A stretch of 36,073 nt of DNA, from the IMG/VR virus record IMGVR_UViG_3300044800_000006, positions 1-36,073 of that record; one strand, 5' to 3'. The stretch comes from a virus. The position numbers and the translations under genes were made by a program. Shown in pieces: positions 5,992 to 31,522 of this stretch. The number at the start of each line of letters is the position of its first letter. Within the stretch, counting starts at the first letter, position 1. The notes beneath the pieces were generated by a model, which was given only the letters and a program-made list of their open reading frames with translations, was not told the DNA's origin and did not search any database.

Positions 5992-5992
5992 T

Positions 5993-6291: not shown

Positions 6292-6316
6292 ATTTTCCTT
6301 TCTTTAATTTTTCTAT

Positions 6317-7342: not shown

Positions 7343-7353
7343 TATACTCCTTT

Positions 7354-9637: not shown

Positions 9638-9650
9638 ATGTCTCCTAGTG

Positions 9651-9662
9651 CTAAAGATGCTA
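9651..9662 (-). repeat. TAGCATCTTTAG motif, copy 1
   Basis: The TAG of the motif is the stop codon of the glycosyltransferase (9660-9662). Eleven to fourteen bases further the SD and ATG of the next gene (9637) follow. Confidence 0.8.
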
Positions 9663-10412
9663 TCTTGATACCATCTCAACACCTTTTGCCAGTATATCGG
9701 CCCAGTCGTTCTTCTTGCCCCACTTTTTCTCGAATATTTTAGTTCTCTCTTTAAACTTATAATCCGAGTTGTCTCGGTCTAGTTCTCTTAATCCCCCGTG
9801 GGCGGCGTGGTAATAAGTAGGCAAAGAGCAAGCTAACGAGATAAACCCTAGTTTTTCCATCTCTTTGTGTAAGTCCGAATCTTCTAGGCCGTAACCTGGC
9901 TCTCCGAACGCCCCCTCTTCGATGAACTTTACCTTTCTTAAAAGTTCCCCTCTGAACAGGCCATAGTTTGTCCACGCCATCGGGAAGCCTTGAGTCACGG
10001 TATAGTCAGTCCCCATCCTCATATCAGCGTCTATAGGATCAGGCGTGCCGTTCTGCATCAGTCTGGTTAAAAGCTCAAATGAGTTCTGTCCGATACAGTA
10101 AGCATCTTTGTTCTTATCGAGTATCTTTTCATATTCTTTAATAGTGCCTGGGACATACAGGCAATCCCCATCTATAAGAAATATGTTTTTACCAGTTGCT
10201 ACCTTGATACCACTGTTTCTACCAACCGAAGCACCGTAGTTTTTGTCTAGGTCAACAAACTTAATATCAAGCGTTCTGAAGTATTCTTTTGAACCGTCAG
10301 TAGAACCGTTGTCAACTACTATCACCTCAAGGTCTGGTTCTTTTAGTAATCTTCTGACAGAGTCCTTAGATACGTCTATTTCCTGCCAGTTGAGTAATAC
10401 ACAACTATCCAT
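9660..10412 (-). CDS. GT2-type glycosyltransferase
   Basis: 250 residues. N-terminal DSCVLLNWQE, DLEVIVVDNGSTDGS (about 27-42) and GKNIFLIDGDCLYVPGT (about 73-90) define a GT-A fold family 2 enzyme; the D-G-D is the nucleotide-sugar/metal site. GYGLEDSDLHKEMEKLG (about 173-189) is the acceptor-side ED motif. It overlaps the epimerase stop by 8 nt and is the last gene of the glycan cassette. Donor and acceptor cannot be read from sequence. Confidence 0.88.
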   Translation of the reverse strand: MDSCVLLNWQEIDVSKDSVRRLLKEPDLEVIVVDNGSTDGSKEYFRTLDIKFVDLDKNYGASVGRNSGIKVATGKNIFLIDGDCLYVPGTIKEYEKILDKNKDAYCIGQNSFELLTRLMQNGTPDPIDADMRMGTDYTVTQGFPMAWTNYGLFRGELLRKVKFIEEGAFGEPGYGLEDSDLHKEMEKLGFISLACSLPTYYHAAHGGLRELDRDNSDYKFKERTKIFEKKWGKKNDWADILAKGVEMVSR

Positions 10413-11217
10413 TTAATATATCCACTATTTTCTTTGTCGCACCGGCTTTATAAATTTCACCGTGTCCACGTTCGCTTTTATCTCTCAAGCTGATGAACTC
10501 TTTGCCTAAAAATATACACTCTTCTTGTAGCCCCCCTGAGTCTGAGATACACCCCTTCGCTCTAGCAAGTAGCTCAACAAAGCGCGTGTAATTGAGGGGT
10601 TCTTGCGTTTTGAAGTGTTCCTTAAGCTCTTGCCCCACTTTGTTAGGATGAGCGAAAATTACTAACTTATCTTGGTTCATCTTTTTTAAAGTCTTTATGA
10701 TTTTAGGAATATCAGCTTCATTTCTATGTACGGTTACTATGTAAAAGTCCTCTTCGATAGCATCAGGCAGAAATTCTACTAGAGTATCTATTGAGGTCTG
10801 ACCGACATATATTCCACCACAATTTACTCTTGCTAACTCGGTTGAGCAGAACTGATAATCAGCGATAGCGTCTATCATCTGCCGGTATCCCTCTTCCGGT
10901 CTAGGGTCGCTCAAGTCCCAAGTTCTCATCCCTGCTTCAACGTGGATTATAGGAATCTTATTCTCATAAGCGTACACCGCCGCGCTGAAAGCAGTTCTTG
11001 TATCGCCTTGAACCATTACAGCGTCAGGTTCACGACTCCAAATTGCACCCTCCAACTCCCACTCCTCGCATATCCAATCATAGTCTATTAACCCTTGATG
11101 CAGGTCCTTGGATTGGTTTACCTGTAGAAACTTAAACCCTGGATACTTGGTAAAAGGATAGAGTTTGATCTCTTCGGCGCGAGTCCCATAGATTGCTAAT
11201 ATGTTTTTATAAATCAT
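10405..11217 (-). CDS. wecB-like: WecB-like UDP-N-acetylglucosamine 2-epimerase
   Basis: Start at ATG 11215-11217 (IYGTRAEEIKLYP), overlapping the zinc-ribbon gene's stop by 11 nt; an upstream GTG-type frame lacks support. The product, 270 residues, is shorter than typical WecB (about 370). Family motifs are clear: GTRAE, VMVQGDTRTAFSAAVYAYENKIPIIHVEAGMR (written here in part), RPEEGYR, TVHRNE, FAHPN, SDSGGLQEE. It would interconvert UDP-GlcNAc and UDP-ManNAc. Catalytic acidic residues and the HVEAGMR motif are present, so it may be active, though parts of the N-domain look shortened. Confidence 0.85.
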   Translation of the reverse strand: MIYKNILAIYGTRAEEIKLYPFTKYPGFKFLQVNQSKDLHQGLIDYDWICEEWELEGAIWSREPDAVMVQGDTRTAFSAAVYAYENKIPIIHVEAGMRTWDLSDPRPEEGYRQMIDAIADYQFCSTELARVNCGGIYVGQTSIDTLVEFLPDAIEEDFYIVTVHRNEADIPKIIKTLKKMNQDKLVIFAHPNKVGQELKEHFKTQEPLNYTRFVELLARAKGCISDSGGLQEECIFLGKEFISLRDKSERGHGEIYKAGATKKIVDILNG

Positions 11218-11413
11218 AATGCGAACCACAACTTTTACACAGATGCAGTTCTCTCCGTTTGCCGTTGCCGAGGTAGTGAACGTGCCACGCTTTTCTAAAC
11301 TTCTTGGCGCAACGCACACAAATAGGTTCTCTAAACTGAGGTTTACGATCACTTGCCATCACATCTGGTGGCCACTTCTCCATTAAATCAAACAGTTGGT
11401 CTTGAGTTATCAT
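11207..11413 (-). CDS. Small zinc-ribbon protein in glycan cassette
   Basis: 68 residues; overlaps the upstream fusion gene by 26 nt and the epimerase by 11. It has CVRCAKKF in the middle and CKSCGSHY near the end, a CxxC...CxxC zinc ribbon, preceded by a Pro/Arg-rich section. Such small ribbons are common in phages and may bind nucleic acid or a partner protein; a link with sugar modification is only by position. Confidence 0.75.
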   Translation of the reverse strand: MITQDQLFDLMEKWPPDVMASDRKPQFREPICVRCAKKFRKAWHVHYLGNGKRRELHLCKSCGSHYDL

Positions 11414-12683
11414 CGAACCCCCTCAGTTCTTCCGGTGTACCAAGCGGAATCGTACTATCCACCGGATAGATGTTTATATTTTTATCCTCTAGACAATTGT
11501 AAGCCGGAGCCATATAAAACTCTCCCTTTGTACGATCGTTCTTCTGGATCATTGTCATAATAGCTTTTACAAGTGATGAGCCAGACTTAAAGTAGTACGC
11601 CCCAGCGTTGGCGTGGGTAGAGATTTGTTTCTTCTCCGCAACCTTTACGAATCCATCGCTCATATCTACATAACTAAAGTGAGGTACTGTTGACTCAAAA
11701 GTAGCTGTCAGTCCATCACAACTTTCAGCCGTATCTATGAAGTTGTCTATATCAATATCTATTATCTGGTCGCAACAACTTAGGATTACTTTATCGTTGT
11801 AGATTAAGTGCGTGGCCGCTAATACGGTAATAGCCGCCCCTTCGGTCTTCCTATCAATAGTTACTATTTCGCAGTTGGGTTCTATACCTTTTAAGGTTTT
11901 ATCTATGTTAAATTCTTCTATATGTTCCTTTTGAACTATGAATATGAATTGATAGGCGTGGGTTTTGGGTCTGATACTCTCGATAGCATAATAAATAAGC
12001 GGTCTGCCTTTGGCTAGGATTAAAGGTTTAGGCAAGGTATAACCTGCGTCTTTGAATCTCTGTCCACCTCCAGCGCAAGGGATCACTATTTTGGTTACCT
12101 TCCCTTCAAACTTTCCCTCTTTAGCTAAACCCCACTTCTTCTCAACATAGTCCTCTAGGTCTTGTCTGGTTTGTCTCATCTCTTGAGATTGATGATGCCA
12201 CACTTCTCCAGAGATAGGTTTGATGGTAAAACCTGCTTTCTTGATCTGCATACACCAGTCTGTGTCTTGAGCATAAGGAGAGTCTATAAACTCATCTAAG
12301 AACCCTATCTTCGCTTGCGCTTTTCTTGAGATACATAGAATCGAGGTTATATCTACTGAATCGTTTTTGTCAGTCACAGCTTTCATACTCGGATGATAGC
12401 CTTTCGAACCGTACATACTGAACCCATTGACCATCTCTTTAACATAGAAAGCCCCAACTTCCGCTGACTCCTTGGCCCAACCTTTTGTTACCTCGCAATC
12501 ATCGTGCAAGAATACTAGGTATTCTCCTTTGGCGCGTTTAATCCCCTCGTTTATTTTCGTGTTATACCCCTTATTTTCTTTGACAATAACCAGTTCATAG
12601 TTTTTGGTATATTTTTTGATTGACGCAAGAAGTCGCTCCAACCCGCCGTCAGTCCTGCGAGTAGGGATTATGATGCTTATCAT
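11388..12683 (-). CDS. Fusion: GT2 glycosyltransferase + sugar nucleotidyltransferase
   Basis: Start at ATG 12681-12683, an ATGA overlap with the upstream gene; 431 residues. Residues 1-190 are a GT2 domain (ISIIIPTRRT, then HDD at about 60-62 in VFLHDDCEV, and a W-H-H region near 162). Residues about 197-431 are a nucleotidyltransferase of the NTP_transferase type: CAGGGQRF (about 203-210), LPKPLI (217-222), and a central SCCDQI and PLGTPEE near the end. One protein would thus make the activated sugar and also transfer sugar, an unusual pairing that implies substrate channelling. Nucleotide and sugar are not determinable here. Confidence 0.85.
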   Translation of the reverse strand: MISIIIPTRRTDGGLERLLASIKKYTKNYELVIVKENKGYNTKINEGIKRAKGEYLVFLHDDCEVTKGWAKESAEVGAFYVKEMVNGFSMYGSKGYHPSMKAVTDKNDSVDITSILCISRKAQAKIGFLDEFIDSPYAQDTDWCMQIKKAGFTIKPISGEVWHHQSQEMRQTRQDLEDYVEKKWGLAKEGKFEGKVTKIVIPCAGGGQRFKDAGYTLPKPLILAKGRPLIYYAIESIRPKTHAYQFIFIVQKEHIEEFNIDKTLKGIEPNCEIVTIDRKTEGAAITVLAATHLIYNDKVILSCCDQIIDIDIDNFIDTAESCDGLTATFESTVPHFSYVDMSDGFVKVAEKKQISTHANAGAYYFKSGSSLVKAIMTMIQKNDRTKGEFYMAPAYNCLEDKNINIYPVDSTIPLGTPEELRGFDDNSRPTV

Positions 12684-13231
12684 AGCCGAACCTCCGGCCA
12701 CTTCTTCTTTAGATATTTTTCTTGTTTGGGGACAGCAACCCCCGCTCCCACACTGTGCCTGTGAATAATCTTCCCAGGTAAACATTTGATTTTAAAACCC
12801 TTGCTTCTAATCTGTAACCCCATCTCAACATCTAAACAGTGCGGTTCTTCGTACCACTCGTCAAACTTTCCGATCTTCTCAACCGCTTGCTTTGATAAGC
12901 ACAAAAAAGACGAATAGTCGGGATTAAAGTTTATGTTTTTACAGTAGTCTCCGTTCAATCCCCCCCAGTGTTCAAATTTGTCGTTCATCTCGCCGACTTT
13001 GAACGCTCCTACTTCTGCCAGTTCTTCCGCCCAACCACTCGTGACGATACTGTCATCGTGCAAGAGAATAATATATTCTCCTGTGGCTCGTGCGATTCCT
13101 TCATTTATCTTTTTAGCAAGTCCCTTTTTACCTTTAACTAAAATAACTTCATAGTTATCAGTATGCCTGTCTATCGAATCAAGGCACTCCTGTAAATCAT
13201 CTCTTCTAGTTGGAATTACTATGCTTAGCAT
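12680..13231 (-). CDS. GT2-type glycosyltransferase
   Basis: 183 residues, opening LSIVIPTRRDDLQE. The G-R-A-T-G-E-Y-I-I-L-L-HDD segment (DxD-like HDD at about 57-59) and LDVEMGLQIRSKGFK ('ED'-type motif, about 150-164) mark a GT-A fold. It resembles the N-terminal domain of the neighbouring fusion in several places (PTRR, NYE(V/L)ILVK, GYxNTKINEGIxRA), so the two probably arose by duplication. It is shorter than most GT2 proteins, lacking a C-terminal extension. Confidence 0.85.
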   Translation of the reverse strand: MLSIVIPTRRDDLQECLDSIDRHTDNYEVILVKGKKGLAKKINEGIARATGEYIILLHDDSIVTSGWAEELAEVGAFKVGEMNDKFEHWGGLNGDYCKNINFNPDYSSFLCLSKQAVEKIGKFDEWYEEPHCLDVEMGLQIRSKGFKIKCLPGKIIHRHSVGAGVAVPKQEKYLKKKWPEVRL

Positions 13232-13869
13232 TTCTTCCCTATAATATAATGGCTAAAGTTGTTTATGTTTCCGATCTTCTCAATCTCAAAGCCTGTTTCG
13301 ACCAATAAAGTAACAAGGTTGTATTGGTCGTAGTGAAATGTATGTTGATCTTTCCACTTGCCTTTATACTCAGGAATATCTCTCCAACTTAATAGATCGT
13401 TCCATAGTCCCTTTTCCCCACCGTTCATCGAAGTCGTGTCCCCGTGAACCTCTTTCATCACAGTTGAGACAAAGACGTGTCCTTGATCCTCTAAGGCATC
13501 AAAAATGCGTCTGAGTGGCTCTGAGGGGTTAGAATTAAAGTGTTCGATTGTCTCAGTAAGCGTAATCAAGTTATATTTGCCTTTTATAGCAGATTTCTCA
13601 ATGTCTATCTTTTCAAACTTAATGCCTTCTTTTTTGAGCATTTTGGTATTGATATACTCGGTGGACATATCGGAGGCCGTGACCTTGTCTCCTCTTAGGT
13701 GCATCATCAAAGCCAGTGTGCCGTAGGCGCAACCGATGTCTAGCGTTCGCTTGCTTTTAGGTAGTAGTTTAAAGACTTCTTTATAGTAAGTCCCGAACCC
13801 GTCAACATAATCTTGGTACTTTTTGTGCTGTTTGTATTTCTTGGCTATCGCTAACGCTTTATTTAGCAT
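13225..13869 (-). CDS. SAM-dependent methyltransferase (class I)
   Basis: 214 residues. RTLDIGCAYGTLAL (about 40-53) is motif I, binding S-adenosylmethionine; KVTASDMSTEYIN follows as motif II and NLITLTETIEHF (about 97-108) as the post-motif acid/helix. The class I Rossmann fold is clear; the substrate is probably a sugar or lipid-linked glycan because both flanking genes are glycosyltransferases, but a small-molecule or protein substrate cannot be excluded. Overlaps both neighbours. Confidence 0.85.
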   Translation of the reverse strand: MLNKALAIAKKYKQHKKYQDYVDGFGTYYKEVFKLLPKSKRTLDIGCAYGTLALMMHLRGDKVTASDMSTEYINTKMLKKEGIKFEKIDIEKSAIKGKYNLITLTETIEHFNSNPSEPLRRIFDALEDQGHVFVSTVMKEVHGDTTSMNGGEKGLWNDLLSWRDIPEYKGKWKDQHTFHYDQYNLVTLLVETGFEIEKIGNINNFSHYIIGKKC

Positions 13870-14920
13870 TGAACTCCTTCATCCAAGACTTTGCCAAACT
13901 CGGAAAGTCCCAAATCTTTTTACTAAACTTCATCATTACACGTCTGAACTGCTCCTGCCCCCGTTCATCGTTTAGAACGTTTATAAGCTCATCTGACCAC
14001 TTGTCTATAATATCTCCGGCAGTCTGGCCTTTGCTTATTTTCTTGCCATATTTAACTGTTTCGTTTAAGGCGGCTTTGGGGATGACAACTGGTATCGCTC
14101 CAGCTATCTGGGCGTTCATCGCGGTTATACAACTGACCTCGTTGAAGTCTATACAGGGATAAGCCCAAATTCCCGCCCCTAGCATCTCTTTGATAACTTC
14201 TTCGTGGGATATTCTTCCTAAGTGTGTAATCCCCTCTTGATCCATTAACTCCTCGACTTCCTTCTTGAACTTCTTGAACTCTATTAAAGGCAGTATTTTC
14301 TCTAGTGTCTCCCAACCATAGAAGATTCTTAGCTTAGCGTCTGGAACAGCTAATTTAATCTTGGGCCAAGCAGTCAGCAGGTGTACTAATCCTCTGTTAT
14401 AAAGCGAACCATAAACCATCGTCTTGGGGTCTCTTTTAACCTTCTGGTCAAACAAGGAGTAGTCAACAGCGTTTCTAGTTTCGATGTATCTTTTTCTAAG
14501 TTCCGGTGGAACCATAATCGTATAGTATTCTTTGTGCCACTGTGAAACGCAGAAGATACCATCGTAAATTAAGGTATAGGGTAGAACGTCTAGTTGCATA
14601 ATAGTATCGTGCAACCATAAGTACTTTTCGGCTTTTACTTTGTCTAAGTGATGTTTTAGAAGAAGTGAGGGTGTGCGCCAGATAATAAGTACGTCAGTTT
14701 CTCTTATATTAAACTCGTCATAGTTCTTGTAAACCACTCCATCATAAGTTCCTTCATCATCTAAACAGCGACACCAGACGTGAACCTTATTCTTTTTGGC
14801 AAGTTCTTTGGCTAAACCTATAACCATCGCTTCAGAACCACCCAAACCCTTATCTAGTGACTTGGGTGACCATTGTTCGTGACTAGGCCCGCAGTATATG
14901 TCTATATCTAAACTTTTCAT
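13859..14920 (-). CDS. GT4-type glycosyltransferase
   Basis: 353 residues. The N-domain holds DIYCGPSHEQWSP and GLGGSEAMVIGLAKEL (the usual GGSE glycine motif). The C-domain has a MVYGSLYNRGLVHLLTAWPKIK strand-turn and the late ACIDFNEVSCITAMNAQIAGAIP motif, which corresponds to the EX7E-type region of GT-B retaining enzymes (here E-V-S...; compare E...E). Likely transfers a sugar from a nucleotide donor. It overlaps the next gene's start by 11 nt. Confidence 0.85.
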   Translation of the reverse strand: MKSLDIDIYCGPSHEQWSPKSLDKGLGGSEAMVIGLAKELAKKNKVHVWCRCLDDEGTYDGVVYKNYDEFNIRETDVLIIWRTPSLLLKHHLDKVKAEKYLWLHDTIMQLDVLPYTLIYDGIFCVSQWHKEYYTIMVPPELRKRYIETRNAVDYSLFDQKVKRDPKTMVYGSLYNRGLVHLLTAWPKIKLAVPDAKLRIFYGWETLEKILPLIEFKKFKKEVEELMDQEGITHLGRISHEEVIKEMLGAGIWAYPCIDFNEVSCITAMNAQIAGAIPVVIPKAALNETVKYGKKISKGQTAGDIIDKWSDELINVLNDERGQEQFRRVMMKFSKKIWDFPSLAKSWMKEFNAK

Positions 14921-15591
14921 ACCATTGACTCCTCTATCTTGTCTCTTTTAACTATCTTATGCTGTTGCTGATACCTGCTGTTCGCGACTGGGCTAACTAA
15001 GTGTTCGATAAAGCAGTGCTTGGCGATACTTTTAGTAACTTTCAAACTAAACTTCTCTTTTCTGCAATTAAGGAAGAACTGCACGTCCTCTCCACCTGAA
15101 AAAGTATTGTTTTCTTGCTGTTGACCTGCGAACAGTCCTATTCTGCCATCGTTGTCTCTTGATATCTTATGATTGGTAAAGATAAACCACGGAGCTGGTA
15201 GTTTCTTAAAGACATGTCTTTTAACCAGTGTGCTTCCGATACCTGCCCAAGCTAGACTCTTGTCTTTGTCATATACCGCTGTGCCTACTTGTTTGTCGTT
15301 TTTAAGCTGTCTTATCGGGTAGTCCATGGCCGCGACATCAGCTTTCAAATCTATGAGTTCTTTCAGCCCACCTTTAGGTAAAATTACGTCATCGTCTAGT
15401 AAAAGGATATGACTCCACCAATCTACTTTCAAGGCAGTCTCTACTAGATAATTCCGGCTTATCGGGAGTGGCATATCGTAGGTTCTTAGTATTACAGGAG
15501 TTTGCATATTGGCTGTCAGTTCTCTTTCCAAAGCTATCTGACATTCTGTAATAAGAATACCTCTCGTAGGACAAACGCAAATTATTTTCAT
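14917..15591 (-). CDS. GT-A type glycosyltransferase, first gene of glycan cassette
   Basis: ATG 15589-15591 with AAAGGAAACT. Product 224 residues. N-terminal KIICVCPTRG and the motif HILLLDDDVILPKGG (about 60-74) with D-D-D are the donor site. ENNTFSGGEDVQFFLNC (about 160-176) is the acceptor 'GGEDxxF' motif typical of GT2-like phage enzymes. It leads an eight-gene block and lies behind its own structured leader after the coat terminator, so expression may be tuned separately from coat protein. Confidence 0.85.
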   Translation of the reverse strand: MKIICVCPTRGILITECQIALERELTANMQTPVILRTYDMPLPISRNYLVETALKVDWWSHILLLDDDVILPKGGLKELIDLKADVAAMDYPIRQLKNDKQVGTAVYDKDKSLAWAGIGSTLVKRHVFKKLPAPWFIFTNHKISRDNDGRIGLFAGQQQENNTFSGGEDVQFFLNCRKEKFSLKVTKSIAKHCFIEHLVSPVANSRYQQQHKIVKRDKIEESMV

Positions 15592-15612
15592 AGTTTCCTT
15601 TCAACAATTAAA

Positions 15613-15644
15613 GCTCTACAGAGTCAGGGAAGAAACTGTAGAGC
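15613..15644 (-). other. Hairpin in leader of glycan cassette
   Basis: GCTCTACAG and CTGTAGAGC (15613-15621 and 15636-15644) form a perfect 9-bp stem with a 14-base loop, 22 nt upstream of the first glycosyltransferase ATG. A third near-copy, GCTCTATAG, lies at 15679-15687 in the TAGCATCTTTAG copy, so an alternative pairing is possible. No T-tract follows on the minus strand, so it looks regulatory or a processing site rather than a terminator. Confidence 0.65.
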
Positions 15645-15662
15645 CATAGTTACCCCTGACTT

Positions 15663-15761
15663 TTAGCTACTACTAAAGATGCTATAGAGCTTTTGACTTC
15701 TTATTTTGCTTATATTTTTTGCATCGTAAATTGACACATATTCTACAATCTCTGAAACCAT
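15663..15761 (-). CDS. Possible 32-residue ORF spanning the motif
   Basis: ATG 15759-15761 opens a 32-codon frame ending in SIFSSS, with the TAGCATCTTTAG copy inside the last codons. No SD is present and the composition is unremarkable. It may be a leader peptide for the glycan cassette or not translated at all. Confidence 0.25.
   Translation of the reverse strand: MVSEIVEYVSIYDAKNISKIRSQKLYSIFSSS
15673..15684 (-). repeat. TAGCATCTTTAG motif, copy 2
   Basis: Lies between coat terminator and glycan cassette, 82 nt before the ATG at 15591, and just upstream of the 15613-15644 hairpin. Confidence 0.8.
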
Positions 15762-15783
15762 AATATTATTCGTTTACAATACC

Positions 15784-15808
15784 AAAAAGACGCCTTTCGA
15801 CGTCTTTT
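15784..15808 (-). terminator. Rho-independent terminator after coat gene
   Basis: On the minus strand AAGACGTC-GAAA-GGCGTCTT followed by TTT: an 8-bp stem (one G-U) capped by a GNRA-type GAAA tetraloop and a short T-run. It begins about 20 nt after the coat stop and would limit read-through into the glycan cassette, allowing high coat expression. Confidence 0.88.
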
Positions 15809-15830
15809 CAGTAGGTTAATTAGTTAAACC

Positions 15831-16712
15831 TCAAGCCTGAGCATACCTGAGCAGAACAGCATGATCTGTTCTTGCCATGGTAACTCCATAAAGCTCGTAT
15901 CCTACCATCTTTTGCCCGATATAATCTACGGAGTATTCTGACTTCATAGTTACATCTTTCTGAAGGGCGATAGCCATTGCGTCCTTGTGGAATACCATTC
16001 CATAAGCGACTGAGGCAGATGAAGCGACGTTATTGGAGAACAAGACTTTGATTCCATACAATTCACCGATAATACCAGAGTTGACAGGTGCGGGTGTTTT
16101 ACCACCAGCGTCATATCTGATATACGATTCAATGTTTAGAAGGTCTTCTCTTCCATAAGCGTCAACTACCATATATCTGTCTTCTTGAGGAGCATTTGCA
16201 ATATCCAGATAACGGTTGGCTGCAACGATAGCGGCTGTGGTGATAACACCAGAGAGAGCTACTGAAGAAGCTGTACCGACTGAATAAGCGCAAGATGCTG
16301 TCAAAGCGAGAATGTCCGAATCAACCACACTTGCCAAAGCTTTGGCGATCTTTCCTGAGAACTCAGTGAATAGATCGTATTTGCTTTGAATCGCGACTAC
16401 ATCTTCGATCAGTTTACCGACATACTTATACTTATTTATGTTGATATTGACTGTCGTATCCGTAGCGGCGGCGAAGGTGATTGCTGAACCAGCCGTCTTG
16501 TCGAGGGCTGTTTCGTTTCCAAGAGTAGGAATATTAACTACTGAGCCATATTTAAGTCCCATCGGCTTAACGTGCATGATCTTGTCAACCATGACGAGAG
16601 CCTTATCCCTAGCGCGGAGTATTTCATCCGACCAAAGTGTAGGGATAAATGAGGCGGCAGCTGTTATATCCTCTGAGGCGCCTCTTGAAGTTGCGCCATC
16701 TAAAGTTGCCAT
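15831..16712 (-). CDS. Major capsid protein
   Basis: 293 residues. Ala/Ser/Thr-rich N-terminal arm, then repeated beta/helix elements (KYGSVVNIPTLGNETAL, KYKYVGKLIEDVVAIQSKYDLFTEFSGKIAKAL, VVDAYGREDLLNIESYIRYD, GELYGIKVLFSNNV, DYIGQKMVGYELYGVTMARTDHAVLL) that match the HK97-fold spine and A-domain of podovirus coat proteins, including P22-like ones; I cannot place it more finely. It directly follows the scaffold gene and is followed by a strong terminator, as expected for the most abundant virion protein. No delta-domain protease site is evident. Confidence 0.88.
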   Translation of the reverse strand: MATLDGATSRGASEDITAAASFIPTLWSDEILRARDKALVMVDKIMHVKPMGLKYGSVVNIPTLGNETALDKTAGSAITFAAATDTTVNININKYKYVGKLIEDVVAIQSKYDLFTEFSGKIAKALASVVDSDILALTASCAYSVGTASSVALSGVITTAAIVAANRYLDIANAPQEDRYMVVDAYGREDLLNIESYIRYDAGGKTPAPVNSGIIGELYGIKVLFSNNVASSASVAYGMVFHKDAMAIALQKDVTMKSEYSVDYIGQKMVGYELYGVTMARTDHAVLLRYAQA

Positions 16713-16724
16713 AATAATTGTTTC

Positions 16725-17423
16725 CTAACTATAATTTTCTATGATCTGTCCCCAATTCGCTTGTCTCTCTTCATCTGACATATTTGCTATGTCAGGTTTC
16801 GGAGTTTCGCCTCTAGCTACTGATGAACCTTGAGGAGATGAGACACCTGCCTTTTGAGCTTTTTCAGCGATAACTTTCTTTTCAGCTTTCGCTCTTTCTG
16901 ATTTGATCATTGCGCTGAACCTATCTGCCGCTGCTTTAAGGGATATTCCCTTAGAGAGGGCGAGATTATACACAAGCTCGGCTTTTTCATCATCCTGATC
17001 TAAGTCAGGGTGAACTTGGAGGGTTTCGGCAATGTCCTTTTGCATACTCTTTGCAGCTTCGACTCTACCTTTTTCAAGTTCCGCTGCTTGTTGCTTTTGC
17101 ATAATTACATCAGCAATCTGTTCAGCGGAATACGTTCCATCTTCAGTAACTACTGGCTCGGCTTGCTTGGGTTGAGCGGCTAACTGTCTCCAGTAAGCTA
17201 CTTCTTCCTCGGCTTGCTTCGCCCTTGAGGTTAACTCCTTAATGCGAGTTTGCGCTCTGGGGGGTTTCTCTTCAGTCTCCACGTCTTCGGTTGGCTGATC
17301 TGACACGTCAGCGGGCGCTTCTTCAACTTCCGGCTTGGGTTCTTCGGAGGTTTGTTCTTCAGCTTGCGGGGCTTCGGTAGTTTCCTCTACCGGTGTGGCA
17401 TCGCCACTTACGACATCATCCAT
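16725..17423 (-). CDS. Scaffolding protein
   Basis: 232 residues, no tryptophan-rich core, very acidic N-terminus (runs of Glu/Pro/Ala to about 55), long coiled-coil middle (RIKELTSRAKQAEEEVAYWRQL and EKGRVEAAKSMQKDIAETL), and a C-terminus ending GQIIENYS. This composition and the position just upstream of the coat gene are characteristic of phage scaffolding proteins that organise procapsid assembly. SD AAAGGA is present. A small hairpin lies in its 5' region. Confidence 0.85.
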   Translation of the reverse strand: MDDVVSGDATPVEETTEAPQAEEQTSEEPKPEVEEAPADVSDQPTEDVETEEKPPRAQTRIKELTSRAKQAEEEVAYWRQLAAQPKQAEPVVTEDGTYSAEQIADVIMQKQQAAELEKGRVEAAKSMQKDIAETLQVHPDLDQDDEKAELVYNLALSKGISLKAAADRFSAMIKSERAKAEKKVIAEKAQKAGVSSPQGSSVARGETPKPDIANMSDEERQANWGQIIENYS

Positions 17424-17443
17424 AGTGTCCTTTCGAGTTATTT

Positions 17444-17461
17444 AAGTGCTTCGGCGCACTT
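17444..17461 (-). other. Hairpin upstream of scaffold gene
   Basis: AAGTGC-gccgaa-GCACTT on the minus strand: six GC-rich pairs with a six-base loop, about 20 nt before the scaffold ATG. On the plus strand the loop reads TTCGGC. Confidence 0.55.
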
Positions 17462-17493
17462 GAGTCCGTAGTTGATCGACTACTTCATCTCCC

Positions 17494-17505
17494 CTAAAGA
17501 TGCTA
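17494..17505 (-). repeat. TAGCATCTTTAG motif, copy 3
   Basis: Six bases downstream of the stop of the 112-residue gene (17511), and 71 nt upstream of the scaffold ATG. A three-codon frame, ATG AAG TAG, with GGGGAG before it directly follows. Confidence 0.8.
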
Positions 17506-17510
17506 AAGGT

Positions 17511-17849
17511 CTAAATTTCTTTAATAGTTCTAAATTGTTCTTCTAGTTTTTCAACTCTTTGAGCGATTTGTTCAACCTCAAAAATGACTTTTAAGCGTTC
17601 ATTAGCTCTTGTCAAACGGTCGTTTAGTAACTCAGGTTTAATCCCAGGCCACACCGCTAAAAGACCAGTCTGCTCTACAGCTTCCTTTACTTGTTTAGAA
17701 AGGCGCTTCCATCCCTGCGTTTGGCATAGGTTGTGGTAGTCCCGTGCTTCCTTGAGCCGCAGCGCCAAAGCTTTGCGGGAATTGTCCTGCTCCTGCGGGG
17801 TCTTGTCCTGGAACCTCTCCAGGTAGTTGTTGTCCATTCTGTTGTCCAT
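17511..17849 (-). CDS. Hypothetical protein overlapping the portal C-terminus
   Basis: 112 residues; ATG 17847-17849 with a textbook AAGGAG 4 nt upstream. It overlaps the portal's last 155 nt in another frame, so both frames are read. N-terminal half is Gln/Asn/Arg-rich and helical; the C-terminal half (LNDRLTRANERLKVIFEVEQIAQRVEKLEEQF) is a coiled coil. Position between portal and scaffold is typical for a head-assembly accessory or head-completion protein. Not recognised. Confidence 0.75.
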   Translation of the reverse strand: MDNRMDNNYLERFQDKTPQEQDNSRKALALRLKEARDYHNLCQTQGWKRLSKQVKEAVEQTGLLAVWPGIKPELLNDRLTRANERLKVIFEVEQIAQRVEKLEEQFRTIKEI

Positions 17850-19515
17850 CGGACTCCTTTTTAAGCCAAAACCTGTCAGGGTCGGTTTCGCCTGATCTGA
17901 CTAATAGTTCTTTGACTATTTCTTGTTCGTCTAAATAACCAACTTGATGAATCTGCCCTGTCGCGGGGTCAGCGACTTGGGTTGAGATATATTTCGCTAA
18001 AATTGGATAGAGGTTCATAAACTTGGCAAACTCCTGGGCCTGATCTACTTGTAAGGTTGAATCGGACTCCGGCACTACGTCAAAGTCCCCTACTATGTCA
18101 GATGGTTTGACTTTAATGTACTGCTCCCCCTGCTGGCCCATAATCCTGATAATCTTCTCTTTGGTTACGAACTGCTGATAGAGCTGATAAATAAACTCTC
18201 CTAAAGGTTTGAAGCCCATCTCCTCGATCAACTTAACCTTGTGACCGAATCTTTGGTTAGCTTCAGAGGTTTTAATCTGCACTTCAGCCGCCGTCTGCCC
18301 TGGGGTTTGAATACCTGTGACATAATCAGTTACTCCCAAAGCTCTTTGCATTGATTCCACTAAGAGATTCTGTTCTTGAACTGCCGTACCTGTGACATTG
18401 GGAATAGACTGTATCTCAACATCTGTTAAGTCGTTGATGTGGATAATTCCGTTATCTATAAACTGTAGCTCGTCATCATCTACCGTATTTTTGGCTTTCC
18501 ACATTGGGCTTAGTATGCGATTTACGTTAACTATTCTCTGATTCTGGGTAGTGTTCAAAGCATGCAGAGATTTCTCGACAGGTTCTATTTCACCCTTACC
18601 CCAGAACTCGCCAGAGTTTAACGAATCTACTATTCTTATAAAGGGTTTCTTCCCGTGCCAGTTAGGATTTATGTCATCGGTTAAGGTTTCAGTTTCATCT
18701 GCCACCACTACCAAATGATCGTCTTCCCACATTTCCCAGATTTTTGCTCTCTCTTCCTTTCCATAATTTACTTGTATACCGGCGGCTTGCTTTTTGGCTC
18801 TTTCAAAGTCACTGGCAGATTCGGCTGTACCCTTGAGTCTTTTTAAAGCCGCTCTGTTATATCTTGGTTTACCGTACTGAGAAGAGTAGTCGTTTTGTTC
18901 TTCCAGTTCTTCGATCGAAGCCCAGTATTGGTGAATAACCCACTTGGCGTCATACATTGAGGTTGCTTTTGGATCAACGAAGAAGTCGTAGATATTAACG
19001 TTCTTTATCCGAGGATCGTCATAATCTATAACTTCGCTTTCTTGAGTAGCAAGTTTTTCAATCGGTTGACCCATCTCATCTAGTTGAGGTTGTACATCTC
19101 CGTTTACGTCAGTAATATAAGATAACAATTTACGAGGTTTAGAAGTGTACCAGTCAACTTTTACAATACCTGTGCCGTAAGTTAAAGCATCCTTAACCCA
19201 GTTCACGATAATCGGATAGACGTTGCACTTTTCAAACCAGTAATCAAACAAGGAACTCATAATCAAAGCTTGCTGTTCATCGGTTCTTTCACGGGGTTTG
19301 TATCCTATTTTAGGATTCTTGGCTAACAAACGAGTAACGACAGTTTCGATAAACGACCAGACGATAGGGTTGAAAACTTTAGAGGGGATGTTAGGGTCAG
19401 ATTTTTTTAATTTAGAATGATAGATATAATCAAAGTCGTTAAACTTCTTAAATTTATCTCGCTGAGTTTCTTCAGCAGACTTCATACGTGATCTGACTGT
19501 GTCTATGATTGCCAT
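17695..19515 (-). CDS. Portal protein
   Basis: 606 residues. Features fit podovirus portals: N-terminal basic helix, NPIVWSFIETVVTRLLAKNP (about 48-67), DALTYGTGIVKVDWY (about 108-122), NIYDFFVDPKA with DAKWVIHQ (about 175-195), and a stem/wing region around LHALNTTQNQRIVNVNRILSPMWKAKN, then GVTDYVTGIQTPGQTAAEVQ (about 395-415). The C-terminus (550-606) turns into a Gln/Pro/Gly-rich low-complexity tail in exactly the part that is also coding in another frame. ATG 19513-19515 with AAGAGGTAAA upstream. It forms the dodecameric channel at the packaging vertex. Confidence 0.92.
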   Translation of the reverse strand: MAIIDTVRSRMKSAEETQRDKFKKFNDFDYIYHSKLKKSDPNIPSKVFNPIVWSFIETVVTRLLAKNPKIGYKPRERTDEQQALIMSSLFDYWFEKCNVYPIIVNWVKDALTYGTGIVKVDWYTSKPRKLLSYITDVNGDVQPQLDEMGQPIEKLATQESEVIDYDDPRIKNVNIYDFFVDPKATSMYDAKWVIHQYWASIEELEEQNDYSSQYGKPRYNRAALKRLKGTAESASDFERAKKQAAGIQVNYGKEERAKIWEMWEDDHLVVVADETETLTDDINPNWHGKKPFIRIVDSLNSGEFWGKGEIEPVEKSLHALNTTQNQRIVNVNRILSPMWKAKNTVDDDELQFIDNGIIHINDLTDVEIQSIPNVTGTAVQEQNLLVESMQRALGVTDYVTGIQTPGQTAAEVQIKTSEANQRFGHKVKLIEEMGFKPLGEFIYQLYQQFVTKEKIIRIMGQQGEQYIKVKPSDIVGDFDVVPESDSTLQVDQAQEFAKFMNLYPILAKYISTQVADPATGQIHQVGYLDEQEIVKELLVRSGETDPDRFWLKKESDGQQNGQQLPGEVPGQDPAGAGQFPQSFGAAAQGSTGLPQPMPNAGMEAPF

Positions 19516-19523
19516 TTTACCTC

Positions 19524-19799
19524 TTATTCTTTGCTAAAGATGCTACCATCCTCCAGATACTCGTTATTTGTCAGTATCCTGCCCGAGATGCAGTTGTTAC
19601 ACTTCACACACCTGAAGCCACCTTCTTCCCCCACATAGGCGTAGTCGTGCTTCTCACAGGGTGCTACTACTTCAGGTTTGATATACGTTGAACCGTCATG
19701 CTCGAACTGTTGTCCCTCTTTTAAGGACTCCAATTTTCCCTGTAGAAGCTTTTCCTGCTCCTGTTGCTCCGCTTGCAACTCTTGCTCTGATTTTTCCAT
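19524..19799 (-). CDS. Zinc-ribbon protein, overlaps the internal virion gene
   Basis: 91 residues; ATG 19797-19799 with AGGAG and good spacing. The N-terminal third is Glu/Gln coiled coil, the C-terminal third has PCEKHDYAYVG and FRCVKCNNC (CxKH ... CVKC), a zinc-binding ribbon. Its first 104 nt overlap the end of the 1314-residue gene in another frame. The TAGCATCTTTAG motif codes its last residues (GSIFSKE). Position just before the portal gene. Function unknown; possible head-completion or DNA-binding role. Confidence 0.75.
   Translation of the reverse strand: MEKSEQELQAEQQEQEKLLQGKLESLKEGQQFEHDGSTYIKPEVVAPCEKHDYAYVGEEGGFRCVKCNNCISGRILTNNEYLEDGSIFSKE
19534..19545 (-). repeat. TAGCATCTTTAG motif, copy 4
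   Basis: Encoded within the last codons of the zinc-ribbon gene (G-S-I-F-S), 19 nt before the portal ATG. Confidence 0.8.
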
Positions 19800-23640: not shown

Positions 23641-23646
23641 AGGGGT

Positions 23647-24711: not shown

Positions 24712-24728
24712 AATTGCCCTTTCTTTTA

Positions 24729-24757
24729 TTGACTTATTATTATTTTTTTGCTATCAT
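24729..24757 (+). promoter_or_regulatory. Promoter of inserted plus-strand membrane gene
   Basis: TTGACT (24729-24734), 17-base spacer, TATCAT (24752-24757). The predicted start lies 7-8 bases on, at the ATG at 24765, and there is no SD. The promoter overlaps the 5' untranslated region of the minus-strand gene ending its start at 24711. Confidence 0.82.
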
Positions 24758-24764
24758 TCGTCTT

Positions 24765-24965
24765 ATGAAAACTATTTTTAAAGTTCTATATATTCTTCTA
24801 GTCTCTTTCGTTATCGCCACCTACGATCTTCAACTTAAATTTGTTTTGGCTTTACAGGCGGAACAACACTCCTATTTATTGATGCGCATAGTCGGATTAT
24901 CTGTAGGCATAGTTGAACCTCTTTTGCTTATCTACATTGGCTATAAACTTTTCAAAAAACATTGA
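24765..24965 (+). CDS. Two-helix membrane protein, leaderless moron candidate
   Basis: 66 residues from the ATG at 24765 (a frame upstream lacks support). Two hydrophobic helices (about 5-24 and 41-61) are joined by a short polar stretch, with a basic C-terminus KKH. It is the only gene pointing right within 20 kb of left-pointing structural genes and has its own consensus promoter, the hallmark of a moron. Two-helix membrane proteins of this size include superinfection-exclusion proteins, but there is no direct evidence. Late minus transcription passes through it antisense. Confidence 0.75.
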   Translation: MKTIFKVLYILLVSFVIATYDLQLKFVLALQAEQHSYLLMRIVGLSVGIVEPLLLIYIGYKLFKKH

Positions 24966-24999
24966 TCTGACATCTCTTCTTTTTACCCATATAACTCCT

Positions 25000-25701
25000 T
25001 TATGCTGTTTCGTAGGTTCCTGTTATGAACATAGTGTCGCCAGCTCCTGTCGCAAAAGGGAATTGTTCTGCTACGGGATTATAATTAACAGATGCCCCCG
25101 AAGCGGCGAAAGCAAGCACTTGCCCCTTCGTTGTATCTACTGCATTGAAAGTTAAAGGATAATAATTTCCGTTTGCATCCGCCATCCCCCCCGTTCCAAT
25201 AGCAGACCCCGGAGTCCCGAATATGGCACTTGATGTTACAGGGAGACTAACAGTCACACCCGTCAACCCTGTAAAGTTTGAAGATACTAAACATACGAAT
25301 TTTGCCCAGAAGTGGACTGTTTTGCCAATTTGCATATACGCCCCAGTAATAGTACCTGCTTGTGAACCCGCTCCAGTTAGTGTCCAAGTCGGTGTATAAG
25401 TAGTCCAAGCATCGCCTAGAAAAGCAAGGTGCGAAGGTACGAGGTTATATCCTACTTTAGCTCCTGCTTCGTGCTGAACGGCTGAAGTACCTTCTTGCCC
25501 TCTGGTAATTGAAGAGATAGCAGTTCCGGTAACATTACACTTAATAACCTCTCTTTTAGCCGGAACGTCATAATCTAATACTAAAAAATCTGCTGTAAAG
25601 TTTGTAAAACTAGAACCCGATAGTGTCGCTGAAGTAACCTCGCCTATTGTCATTACCGATGCGAGTGTTCCTGACTTGCCAAATTGTAAATTGTAACTCA
25701 T
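25000..25701 (-). CDS. Tail appendage / receptor-binding-type protein
   Basis: 233 residues. N-terminal 90 residues contain 'LSGSSFTNFTADFLVLDYDVPAKREVIKC' and 'ITRGQEGT' — a module also seen in the nozzle-like protein upstream (SEIISYTGIDATTFTGCTRG). The C-terminal domain starts TPTWTLTGAGSQAGTITGAYMQIGKTVHFWAKF and is beta-rich with TPTW and YxQIGKTV signatures of phage appendage jelly-roll domains. It would sit at the tail tip and bind host surface. ATG 25701 with AAAGGAAAAAT. Confidence 0.75.
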   Translation of the reverse strand: MSYNLQFGKSGTLASVMTIGEVTSATLSGSSFTNFTADFLVLDYDVPAKREVIKCNVTGTAISSITRGQEGTSAVQHEAGAKVGYNLVPSHLAFLGDAWTTYTPTWTLTGAGSQAGTITGAYMQIGKTVHFWAKFVCLVSSNFTGLTGVTVSLPVTSSAIFGTPGSAIGTGGMADANGNYYPLTFNAVDTTKGQVLAFAASGASVNYNPVAEQFPFATGAGDTMFITGTYETA

Positions 25702-25720
25702 ATAATTTTTCCTTTCGTTG

Positions 25721-25732
25721 CTAAAGATGCTA
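25721..25732 (-). repeat. TAGCATCTTTAG motif, copy 5
   Basis: Begins directly after the nozzle gene's TAG stop (25733-25735), giving TAGTAGCATC, and lies 20 nt before the ATG of the tail appendage gene. Confidence 0.8.
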
Positions 25733-27529
25733 CTAAACTTCCTTCAAAGCGTCGCGCTTATGGTATGGGAGTGGCAGATACCCTACTGACGCTTGTTTAA
25801 CCTCAAAAGACTCGTTTAGATTATTGTTTATAAACTCCATCTGAAAAGTAGTCCCGTTAGGAGAGGTCACTAAAGTGTGCCATCTCCAGTCGTTAGAGAG
25901 CGTTATCCCTGTCGAGGTGGCATCGGTAAAGTTGCCCTCCAAACCAAGTAGAAATGTACCCATCGGTAGCGTTCCCAACCCGTCTGATGTGGTAGCCCCT
26001 GAACCTGATGAGAAACTGATAGTGTCTGCTACAACTCCATTGGCGTATAGATTAACTGTCAAGATTCCATAAACTCCGCCTAATTGTAAGTTCCAGTTCT
26101 GATAAATCTTTTCAATATTAAATTCTTTAAGGTCATATTCTTTAGTCTTATAGTTCGCTAAGACAGCTACACCATCATCTGAGAGTCCTTGATAAAGTTC
26201 GTAAATGTATGAGTTAGTGGAGTCGTCAGAAACATAATAGAGATGTTTGGTATCGGTAGAGTCTATCCAATCAAGCCAAGAGTTTACTTTAACAGAGTCC
26301 CAGTAAGTCCATGCTTTGTAGGGGATTTGGTACGCTAATATATGATCGTTGCAGGCTGTCCCTGATTGGAAAGCTACTATAAACGTTTCTTCTCTGTCGT
26401 AGTAAATGCACGCCACGTTCGCTATGGCGGTCTGTGTCATACCAGCGAACAGTTTAGAAACCCTAGCCGATACGTTGGTAGTCCTTATAGTAGAGTAGGT
26501 CGCTATCTCTCCTAACGAGTAGATAGTATCTGACATAAAATAGATATCATTCTCAACATTCTCGATTGATCTTGGCGCACGACAGCCAATCGAGTTAGAA
26601 ATTATAGAGGAAGAGTGATCTAATACTCCGGCTGTTACTTGAGGAGAGAGCGATTTGATTCCATTCTTTAAGAATACATAAAGTGATGTACCTGATTTAC
26701 CAAATCCTGTAACCTCTACACCCAACCCAAAGTCAACATACCCTCCGTGAGAAGTGGTCTGCAGTTTGGCGTTGTCATCGTGAGCTATGTTAGTAGTCCC
26801 GAACGCCCCTCTCGTACAGCCTGTAAAGGTAGTAGCGTCTATTCCTGTGTAGCTTATGATTTCAGAATCTATAACTATGTTTCCTGTAGCTGGGAAGCCC
26901 GTAGTTGAGTCAACTGTGATAGAGGTAGCAGTTGCAGCCAAAGCCCCGTTTAAGAGTGTTGAGACGATTGAGGAAGTAAAGTCTCCTGTATCAGTAGCAG
27001 TCCCGTCTGCCTGTAAAGGCTTGCCAAAGTACACCCGTGACTTTTGATCGTTTGAAGTGCAATATAAACGATTATTGAACTTAATCCCTTGATTGACCTT
27101 AGTAGGAGCCGCTGAGATGCCCGTGGTGACGATATTAGTGCCATTGTAGTACTGGAGAGCGGTTACACCATCAAATAGATATAATCTTGTCCCAAGTTGA
27201 ATAGCGTTGACGTTGGTAGTTGAAAAAGTCCCGCCCGTGACTTCAATAGAACTAGAACCTGATAGTTTATAAAGTTTAGAATTACAAACATAGAGTATTT
27301 CTCTAACTGAGTTAGTAACATATGAAAAGATACCGGTTATCTTTTTACCTGCGACTACTTCAGCTGATAACTTAATATATCCTTGACGTTTAGAGATACC
27401 TGTCAGACCTGCAAAGACTACATTTAAAAGATCAGGTGACTCGTTGTCCTTAACCTGAGTGGCGTTGTTAAAACTATTAAAACCTCCGACTAGTGAGTTT
27501 ACAACCGCGAGCTTTATTTTAGAACCCAT
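25733..27529 (-). CDS. Tail nozzle / stabilisation-like protein
   Basis: 598 residues, beta-rich throughout. N-terminal NSLVGGFNSFNNATQVKDNESPDLLNVVF is the opening seen in podovirus tail proteins that cap the adaptor (P22 gp10/T7 gp12-type). Four to five repeated beta-sheet units follow (LYVCNSKLYKL, TRLYLFDG, NNRLYCTSN, NDIYFMSD), suggesting a propeller. An inserted module at about 210-255 (TSITVDSTTGFP...GCTRGAFGT) is shared with the tail appendage gene. Located between adaptor and appendage genes, which fits the tail order. No enzymatic motif seen. Confidence 0.75.
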   Translation of the reverse strand: MGSKIKLAVVNSLVGGFNSFNNATQVKDNESPDLLNVVFAGLTGISKRQGYIKLSAEVVAGKKITGIFSYVTNSVREILYVCNSKLYKLSGSSSIEVTGGTFSTTNVNAIQLGTRLYLFDGVTALQYYNGTNIVTTGISAAPTKVNQGIKFNNRLYCTSNDQKSRVYFGKPLQADGTATDTGDFTSSIVSTLLNGALAATATSITVDSTTGFPATGNIVIDSEIISYTGIDATTFTGCTRGAFGTTNIAHDDNAKLQTTSHGGYVDFGLGVEVTGFGKSGTSLYVFLKNGIKSLSPQVTAGVLDHSSSIISNSIGCRAPRSIENVENDIYFMSDTIYSLGEIATYSTIRTTNVSARVSKLFAGMTQTAIANVACIYYDREETFIVAFQSGTACNDHILAYQIPYKAWTYWDSVKVNSWLDWIDSTDTKHLYYVSDDSTNSYIYELYQGLSDDGVAVLANYKTKEYDLKEFNIEKIYQNWNLQLGGVYGILTVNLYANGVVADTISFSSGSGATTSDGLGTLPMGTFLLGLEGNFTDATSTGITLSNDWRWHTLVTSPNGTTFQMEFINNNLNESFEVKQASVGYLPLPYHKRDALKEV

Positions 27530-28162
27530 TCAATCCCCCTCATTGAAACCAAGATTGCAGGTGTAGAGCGCGCCTCTTCTAAGCCTTTGTGGTCTGGTTT
27601 TCTTATCCGATGAGATCATCTCTTGTAAACGTCTGTCTGCTAGTACTTGAAAGCGGTCGTGGTTTGTTTCATCTCTTTCCGAGGAGAGCCAATATTCTGC
27701 TGCCACGAAGTATTTAACAAGTTTCATATCCGGCACAACGTCTATAGCAGCATCAGCAGTTAAAGTAGCAGGGATATGATAGTAAATTATTGAAAGGGCG
27801 ACATCTTCTTTGGTGTTTATCTGCCACCTATTGGTAGAAGTGTTGTAGTCTATGAAATAAATGTATGAGGAGTCAGCGTAGCCAGTCCATAGTTCTTTAT
27901 CTACCAAGTAATAACGGTTCTTATTAGCATCTTCGACTAACATTTTGTGATTGATATTAAAGTCAGCCGGTAGATCGCCTACTTTAGAACTTGTAGTGAC
28001 TGTAGTGGGCTTTTGTAGCCAACTGAAAGGATATGCGTTCGCTATGTCTGATTGTCTAACCTCGTTGATTAGGTTGTCTCTGATAACATTAGCTGTCGCG
28101 CCATCGGTTCTTCCGAGAACGTTGCTACAGGCATTCTTTTCTTGTAAGTATGTGTTGCTCAT
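27530..28162 (-). CDS. Head-tail adaptor protein
   Basis: 210 residues; ATG 28160-28162, poor SD but motif copy 6 lies five bases upstream. The RDNLINEVRQSDIANAYPFSWLQKPTTVTTSSKVGDLPADF segment (about 26-70) is typical of podovirus adaptors that bind the portal and the nozzle; the rest is mixed with a basic C-terminus containing ADRRLQEMIS. The stop abuts the nozzle start by one base. It would sit between portal and nozzle. Confidence 0.75.
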   Translation of the reverse strand: MSNTYLQEKNACSNVLGRTDGATANVIRDNLINEVRQSDIANAYPFSWLQKPTTVTTSSKVGDLPADFNINHKMLVEDANKNRYYLVDKELWTGYADSSYIYFIDYNTSTNRWQINTKEDVALSIIYYHIPATLTADAAIDVVPDMKLVKYFVAAEYWLSSERDETNHDRFQVLADRRLQEMISSDKKTRPQRLRRGALYTCNLGFNEGD

Positions 28163-28166
28163 ACTA

Positions 28167-28178
28167 CAAAAGATGCTA
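28167..28178 (-). repeat. TAGCATCTTTTG motif, copy 6 (one mismatch)
   Basis: The TAG is the stop of the sigma-like gene (28176-28178). The adaptor ATG is five bases downstream, with no separate SD. Confidence 0.75.
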
Positions 28179-28568
28179 GAGCAGATTAATATCCATCTCC
28201 ACTTTACGGTCTAGTCCATCCTTCAACTTGTATTCTCTATCAGTAAACGTGCATCTTCTTCGATAGAGTTGTCCCAAACAAGTGAAAAAGCACCTGTCCA
28301 TATAACGTAAATAACGATAATCGAACTTATCCATATCATCAGGTAGTTTTGAAAGTTTAGTCCATAGTTCTATTGATAGTTCTTGGAAGATGTCATCAAA
28401 GTCTAGTCCGTTTATTCTTTGTCTATTACGATTGGCGTGAAAGTACAATCTGTCGTGCATTCTGTTAAATAAGTCATCAAAGGGTATCTCGCATAATAGT
28501 TTAGAGTCATAAAGACCGTCAATTCGTTTAGTTTTTTGAGGTCTATGGATTCCGTCTAGGTGTTTCAT
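28176..28568 (-). CDS. Sigma-factor-like protein (region 2-like)
   Basis: 130 residues. Residues about 50-75 read GLDFDDIFQELSIELWTKLSKL, which matches sigma70 region 2 (D-x-x-Q-E-...-L-W), followed by FDYRYLRYMDRCFFTCLGQLYRRR, resembling regions 2.3-2.4 that melt and read the -10 element. No region 4 is visible, so it would be a minimal factor or act with host sigma. It precedes a series of structural genes that carry the TAGCATCTTTAG motif, so it may control late transcription. The similarity is by eye only. Confidence 0.55.
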   Translation of the reverse strand: MKHLDGIHRPQKTKRIDGLYDSKLLCEIPFDDLFNRMHDRLYFHANRNRQRINGLDFDDIFQELSIELWTKLSKLPDDMDKFDYRYLRYMDRCFFTCLGQLYRRRCTFTDREYKLKDGLDRKVEMDINLL

Positions 28569-28624
28569 TCTAAGAATATTTGTCCTTGTTGTTTAAGTAA
28601 TATAGACAATAATATAATCAAGGG

Positions 28625-31161: not shown

Positions 31162-31197
31162 AATTTTCACTAATCTGCGGGTCAAGCAGATGTTATT

Positions 31198-31482: not shown

Positions 31483-31522
31483 TTCTATTCCTTTCTCTTC
31501 TTGACCCGCATACTACTGAAAA

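Follow-up and report, generated by a model that had tools for sequence, protein, structure and literature searches.

A repeated motif before late genes and a neighbouring sigma region-2 protein in an uncultivated phage group: a probable single-element promoter system

The IMG/VR viral record IMGVR_UViG_3300044800_000006 (36,073 bases, analysed over its whole length and hereafter called the window) contains the late part of a phage with T7/P22-like portal families, by inference podovirus-like, and it raises a simple question: why does the word TAGCATCTTTAG recur at the junctions of its late genes? An earlier reading made from the letters alone (hereafter the sequence-only reading) had listed six copies on the coding strand, and had offered an RNA processing site, a translation enhancer or a −10-like element for a phage sigma factor as explanations. 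The last of these is supported here, with the other two kept as rivals: judging from comparative sequence analysis, the motif is very probably a single-element (−10-type) late promoter, used by host RNA polymerase carrying a minimal sigma factor made by the phage. The features that argue for this are a sigma region-2 gene next to the first copy, conserved junctions with a genome-specific spelling, the lack of a −35 element, and an initiator-like AA at a fixed distance downstream of the motif in one relative.

A recount bears out the six copies at the positions listed, five of them exact and one, TAGCATCTTTTG at 28167, with a single mismatch. All lie on the − strand, on which every gene concerned is encoded. 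The + strand has none, even with one mismatch, nor is there a copy at ≤1 mismatch in positions 1–9650 or 28179–36073. In 200 dinucleotide shuffles of the window, searched on both strands, the exact word was found 0.015 times on average and never more than once, and no 12-mer whatever exceeded four copies in 100 dinucleotide shuffles, against five for TAGCATCTTTAG. When up to two mismatches are allowed the window has 12 sites for 4.45 expected, so the additional two-mismatch sites are mostly background. The copies had also been placed at gene ends, and the remarks on stops and last codons are right: at 9651 and 28167 the upstream gene stops at the TAG of the motif, the 25721 copy directly follows a stop, the 17494 copy lies 5 nucleotides (nt) past one, and the 19534 copy is within the last codons. 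The exception is the 15673 copy, which is found ∼150 nt beyond the end of the capsid gene, in a stretch that holds just one short unassigned open reading frame (ORF). The distance to the next start, given as 5–82 nt, agrees with the measured 4–81 nt (Table 1), the counting differing by one base.

Four relatives were compared with the window (W): G1 (IMGVR_UViG_3300032046_002556, L007; 20,854 bases), G2 (IMGVR_UViG_3300050020_000115, L009; 27,785 bases), G3 (contig JACCVY010000269.1 of a Blastocatellia metagenome-assembled genome, MAG; 36,698 bases) and G4 (IMGVR_UViG_3300045391_002704, L037; 10,000 bases), the latter found via a glycosyltransferase profile. G3 is probably a complete phage genome, because its first and last 127 bases are identical; the bin in which it was placed is no proof of a Blastocatellia host. 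The capsid proteins of the four relatives are 60–65% identical to that of the window. Each relative has its own spelling of the word: TATCGTCTTTTATA (three copies), TTTCGTCTTTCTTG (one), CGTCTTTTA (nine) and CCGTCTTTCTC (two, in G4). In G1, AATATCGTCTTTTATA is present three times on the coding strand, and not at all on the other. In G3, CGTCTTTTA is the commonest 9-mer of the genome and all nine copies are on the coding strand; 200 shuffles of G3 gave a mean of 0.48 copies and a maximum of 3, and no 9-mer of any kind exceeded 8 copies in 100 shuffles. In W, G1, G3 and G4 alike, the motif is far more frequent than chance would allow and restricted to the coding strand, and the core common to the five phages is C-R-T-C-T-T-T, surrounded by genome-specific flanks.

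The sequence-only reading had staked its case on conservation in relatives, and this is found at three core junctions. Counting only the phages whose contig spans a given junction, the motif is present before the portal gene in 4/4 (W, G1, G3, G4), before the scaffold gene in the same four, and before the tail-adaptor-like gene in 4/4 (W, G1, G2, G3). Shared junctions with a differing spelling are what one would expect if a site evolves along with the factor that reads it. The late genes can be divided in three blocks: P runs from the portal gene to the last glycosyltransferase gene, Y from the tail adaptor to 19524, and E is 8924. The window has the order Y-P-E, G2 has P-Y-E and G3 has P-E-Y, as expected if each block is headed by its own promoter. 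The tail-adaptor-like gene of G2 (L009 8109) has no ATG at the aligned start, where an ATA is found at a proper distance after AAGGAG.

A candidate for the reader of the motif is encoded next to its first copy. The 130-aa gene at 28176–28568 ends in the TAG of TAGCATCTTTTG, and profile evidence identifies a sigma region-2 domain in its product and in the orthologues. The Pfam profile Sigma70_r2 (PF04542) scores 17.2 bits (17.2–17.7, E 0.0045) on the window protein and 11.9 bits on the G1 orthologue, and these are the only two matches when the whole records of the window and G1 are searched. Orthologues are found at the same place in G3 and G4, between the terminase and portal genes, and in 4/4 phages covering that place the gene immediately precedes the first copy of the motif. 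Combined in one profile, the four orthologues matched a set of 12 sigma factors of the MAG with a probability of 92 (E 6.4e-7), over 73 columns corresponding to region 2.1–2.4, compared to at most 3.9 for 60 column-shuffled versions and at most 0.7 for five other phage alignments. A three-row AlphaFold model consists of three helices, with a predicted local distance difference test score (pLDDT) of ∼82–94 in the core, and in a structural aligner other than Foldseek all 50 matches listed are sigma chains by title, with Z of 6.8–8.5. The orthologues are 116–151 aa in length (gp55 of T4 has 185), and the 24–45 residues left after region 2 are too few for a region 4. No motif copy fronts the sigma gene in W, G1, G3 or G4, as a cascade would require. 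At the C-terminus, corresponding to residues 107–130 of the window protein, the orthologues have a common RDxLN-like stretch, and a hydrophobic and acidic end.

For the promoter architecture, 21 motif sites were pooled. No −35-like element was found at these sites, the best hexamer between −45 and −13 (one mismatch allowed) being present in 12 of the 21, a count equalled by 25 of 200 random sets. Downstream, initiator-like purines occupy offset 13 (in nt, counted from the core C) at 18/21 sites, and offset 14 at 19/21. In G3, offsets 13–14 are AA in all nine copies, including four where this AA is neither within an ATG nor directly before one; for comparison, AA is found at −3,−2 in 5/35 other G3 ORFs. 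A used ATG comes no closer to the core C than 13 nt (28167 and the G4 portal), and for the G1 portal the distance is 15 nt with the second ATG, a choice suggested by alignment. The ATG is at offset 14 in five G3 copies and 16 in three, so a transcription start near offset 13 would just precede, or coincide with, the start codon in eight of the nine. A Shine-Dalgarno-like word is lacking in all seven motif-fronted G3 ORFs with ≥80 aa, whereas 12 of 29 other ATG ORFs, unverified ones included, have one. In the window such a word is seen (by eye) before five of the six motif-fronted genes, and near-leaderless mRNAs are therefore predicted for some members only.

A long leader precedes the scaffold gene in W, G1, G3 and G4, with a gap of about 60–100 nt. 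It contains a hairpin with a YCGA loop, in which three of the four pairs show compensatory changes over these phages, and which is a candidate control element for scaffold and capsid. An ACTCG stretch is found after this hairpin, just before the Shine-Dalgarno-like word.

In sigma factors, region 2 is responsible for binding to the polymerase and for melting and recognising the −10 element. Host RNA polymerase would first make the 130-aa phage protein, little more than a region 2, which would then take the host polymerase to TAGCATCTTTAG before the virion genes, the motif acting alone and without a −35 element. Transcription would begin ∼13 nt downstream of the core C. Copies with the start codon at this very point (28167 and most of those in G3) would yield a nearly leaderless mRNA; the other copies would give a leader with a Shine-Dalgarno-like word, and a structured leader before scaffold and capsid. 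I infer that this sigma reads this motif, and likewise the start point and the late timing.

A number of results weigh against this proposal. Conservation at the same junctions, which held for the portal, scaffold and tail-adaptor-like genes, is seen in some phages only at the others: 2/4 for the 25000–25701 orthologue (W and G3; not G1 or G2), 2/3 for the 8924 orthologue (W and G3; not G2) and 1/5 for the post-capsid junction (W only). With three junctions fully kept and three partly, it is therefore the system that is conserved, with individual promoters that come and go. G2 has a single recognisable copy, TTTCGTCTTTCTTG, and its record gives no Sigma70_r2 match, the place of the sigma gene lying beyond its contig. 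The three non-purine exceptions at offset 13 are all in G1, with T in 3/3. The Sigma70_r2 score is below the curated cut-off of 24 bits, and the protein is therefore filed as a homologue by profile comparison and not as a Pfam member. Foldseek returned no E below 0.4 for the sigma model, most of its best rows being sigma chains, and the Z range given above is one that the other aligner rates as middling for helical proteins. For a first AlphaFold model, based on two rows, the top Foldseek matches were ion channels, with the N-terminal domain of SigE at rank 46; this was a poorer model (pLDDT 62.6), and the ion-channel matches were dismissed as meaningless.

The two other readings offered for the motif have to be weighed against the promoter, as do two more. 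If a host or phage endonuclease cut the late polycistronic RNA at the motif, each late module would obtain its own 5′ end and stability. This agrees with a strand-specific motif located at junctions and with the structured leaders before scaffold, and would equally yield short leaders, but I regard it as unlikely, as it explains neither the adjacent sigma region-2 gene nor the lack of the motif at the sigma and terminase genes, which precede the first copy. It is more improbable still that the motif is a promoter core read by an alternative sigma factor of the host, or by another phage factor, in place of the 28176–28568 protein. Binding by the latter is itself a prediction, and host sigmas of the extracytoplasmic function (ECF) type are numerous in the MAG of G3; however, the spelling of the motif varies between relatives while the sigma region-2 gene holds its place.

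A role in translation, as a ribosome-level enhancer or a signal for starts without a Shine-Dalgarno sequence, would account for the G3 copies, in eight of which the ATG is 5 or 7 nt past the 9-mer, and for the absence there of Shine-Dalgarno-like words before motif-fronted ORFs. Nonetheless, several copies in W and G1 are 13–81 nt from the start, the gap before scaffold is long in all four phages, and the G3 scaffold copy retains the fixed AA with no start codon behind it; this role is consequently very improbable. Hardly credible is the view that the repeats mark sites of recombination or exchange of late modules, and have no role in expression: the order of the late blocks does differ, and block borders bear motif copies in W, G1 and G3, but copies are also located inside blocks (17494, 25721 and 15673, and two more in G3), and blocks that each start with their own promoter give the same picture. 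A likeness to the antitermination element boxA, the core of which is UCUUUA, was dropped, as the conserved part of the motif extends further upstream and boxA leaves the sigma gene unexplained.

Late promoters read by a phage sigma factor, the explanation preferred here, can be compared to several known systems. The 12-factor set matched by the region-2 profile is mostly ECF-like, and CGTC is a common −10 word of ECF factors, but those of bacteria have a region 4 and a −35 element, neither of which is seen here. The closest way of working is that of phiEco32, a podophage whose sigma factor gp36 (phi32_gp36) is described as lacking a recognisable region 4 and using a single element with no −35 at its middle and late promoters, with starts 6–8 bp downstream (PMC8948821). 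The element is ∼9 nt long and present in few copies before late genes, as here, and these phages too would combine a sigma without region 4 with single-element promoters. In contrast, the phiEco32 word (tAATGTAtA) does not match the CRTCTTT-based words, gp36 is larger (214 aa) than the proteins described here, and hhalign of the sigma profile against the single gp36 sequence gave a probability of 1.3, so that no sequence descent from gp36 is shown. Phage 7-11 (SaPh711_gp47) also has a phage sigma, late-gene promoters and a specificity that diverged between related phages, but differs in its bipartite promoter and in a sigma with region 4 (PMC8948821).

The second-closest system is gp55 of T4, which is described as a small divergent protein of the sigma-70 family, its smallest member, with a distantly recognisable domain 2 and late promoters that are unconserved at −35 (PMC2988020). 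The proteins described here seem shorter still. With gp55 the model aligns at Z 7.5, a value shared by other sigma domains, and the short hydrophobic/acidic C-terminal tail of the orthologues may resemble the clamp-binding tail of gp55 (PMC2988020). The T4 late promoter word differs from those found here, and T4 late promoters involve a sliding clamp and a gp33-like coactivator. Predicting such promoters from repeats among late intergenic regions is a known method (PMC4331800). The principle is thus one known from a few cultured phages, of which the system described here looks like a new, unusually small version.

A bolder combination of claims is conceivable, though as a whole somewhat doubtful: that these are the smallest known working factors of the sigma-70 family, of 116–151 aa with domain 2 only; that initiation at or within ∼3 nt of the start codon makes nearly the whole virion programme of some phages leaderless, scaffold and capsid excepted; and that the C-terminal tail recruits a replication or polymerase partner, replacing region 4. 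With sigma and motif each occurring in several spellings across this uncultivated phage group, the compact pair would provide a natural data set on the joint change of a sigma domain 2 and its −10 word where no −35 anchors them. Leaderless late mRNAs are a further prediction, and the system suggests a simple route to the late promoters and late sigma genes of metagenomic phages that are annotated as hypothetical.

A near-identity search of a phage collection with window positions 8000–30000 gave no match; in tblastn against this collection the window sigma protein had none at E 10, and the G4 orthologue a single weak one (E 1), to a sigma-70 family protein of Geobacillus phage GR1. A PDB sequence search with two sigma rows gave one match, at E 0.76, rejected as unrelated. 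Rfam found nothing at the gathering score in the window and G1. The profile for single-subunit phage RNA polymerase (PF00940) had no match in four records, but was also silent in the control genomes and is therefore uninformative, as is a sigma-70 promoter scan (38 found, 37.4 expected). A portal profile run on 396 genomes of the MAG's phylum gave two weak distant matches besides G003, and a portal search of viral contigs a 23% relative, L034. The glycosyltransferase profile identified 10 loci, namely G1 and G2 again, the close relative G4, and seven more distant ones (L038–L044). In these seven, whose own motifs were not searched thoroughly, three motif words looked for are absent save for one CGTCTTTTA in L040. 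Although L043 has terminase and tail genes in common with these phages, no CRTCTTT copy is present at the four junctions inspected. Among open-licence papers, none was found on the motif or the phage group, the exact-word matches being, as listed, primer-like and in unrelated papers.

Table 1. Positions in the window of the motif copies and of the genes and leader discussed in the text.
Feature	Positions	Strand	Motif end to next start (nt)	Remarks
Terminase large subunit	28625–30802			Upstream of first motif copy
Sigma region-2 protein, proposed late sigma factor	28176–28568	−		130 aa; Pfam match below cut-off, profile match, fold comparison; orthologues in G1, G3, G4
Motif copy TAGCATCTTTTG, one mismatch	28167–28178	−	4	Fronts tail-adaptor-like gene; TAG is stop of sigma gene; junction shared with G1, G2, G3
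Tail-adaptor-like gene, motif-fronted	27530–28162	−		Orthologues in G1, G2, G3; putative function, no library support
Motif copy	25721–25732	−	19	Fronts gene 25000–25701; present in G3, absent in G1 and G2
Late gene, motif-fronted	25000–25701	−		No function assigned; orthologues in G2, G3
Motif copy	19534–19545	−	18	Fronts portal gene, inside final codons of ORF 19524–19799; junction shared with G1, G3, G4
Portal protein, motif-fronted	17695–19515	−		
Motif copy	17494–17505	−	70	Fronts scaffold-like gene, then structured leader; junction shared with G1, G3, G4
Scaffold leader	17424–17493	−		Two hairpins and Shine-Dalgarno-like AAAGGA
Scaffold-like protein, motif-fronted via leader	16725–17423	−		phrog_8865, E 0.00028
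Major capsid protein	15831–16712	−		In unit behind 17494 copy
Motif copy	15673–15684	−	81	Between capsid gene and gene 14917–15591; not found there in G1, G2, G3, G4
Gene behind 15673 copy	14917–15591	−		
Motif copy	9651–9662	−	13	Fronts gene 8924–9637; TAG is stop of last glycosyltransferase gene; junction shared with G3, absent in G2
Gene behind 9651 copy	8924–9637	−		ATG at 9637 preferred over GTG at 9682 (by-eye alignment with G3 orthologue)

Past the capsid gene, an H-type pseudoknot is found in W (15612–15661, − strand), G1 (L007 9515–9563) and G2 (L009 1483–1529). It is formed by two interleaved perfect or near-perfect stems of 8–11 pairs, the letters of which differ in each phage, and its quality was matched by 0/200 letter shuffles in each of the three. 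It was not found in G3, and in G4 was no better than shuffles. The structure may serve the next gene as a regulatory leader.

The large terminase subunit seems to bear an intein, with a weak Hint_2 match at residues 398–427 of the 725-aa frame. The tail genes of the window are weakly recognisable. A run of glycosyltransferase and epimerase genes is present at 9660–15591, inside the structural region; their products rank with the best-conserved proteins of these phages, above the capsid, one of them at 65–71% identity. Exonuclease and DnaD-like genes are located at 1112–3180. The exonuclease gene and its neighbours (window 1–3400, G3 8295–9357) run in the same direction as the late genes in the window and opposite to them in G3, reflecting either a change in early-gene orientation or a difference in assembly. 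The left end of the record (1–204) consists of a 12-bp tandem repeat of the ACCGCACCGCCA type.

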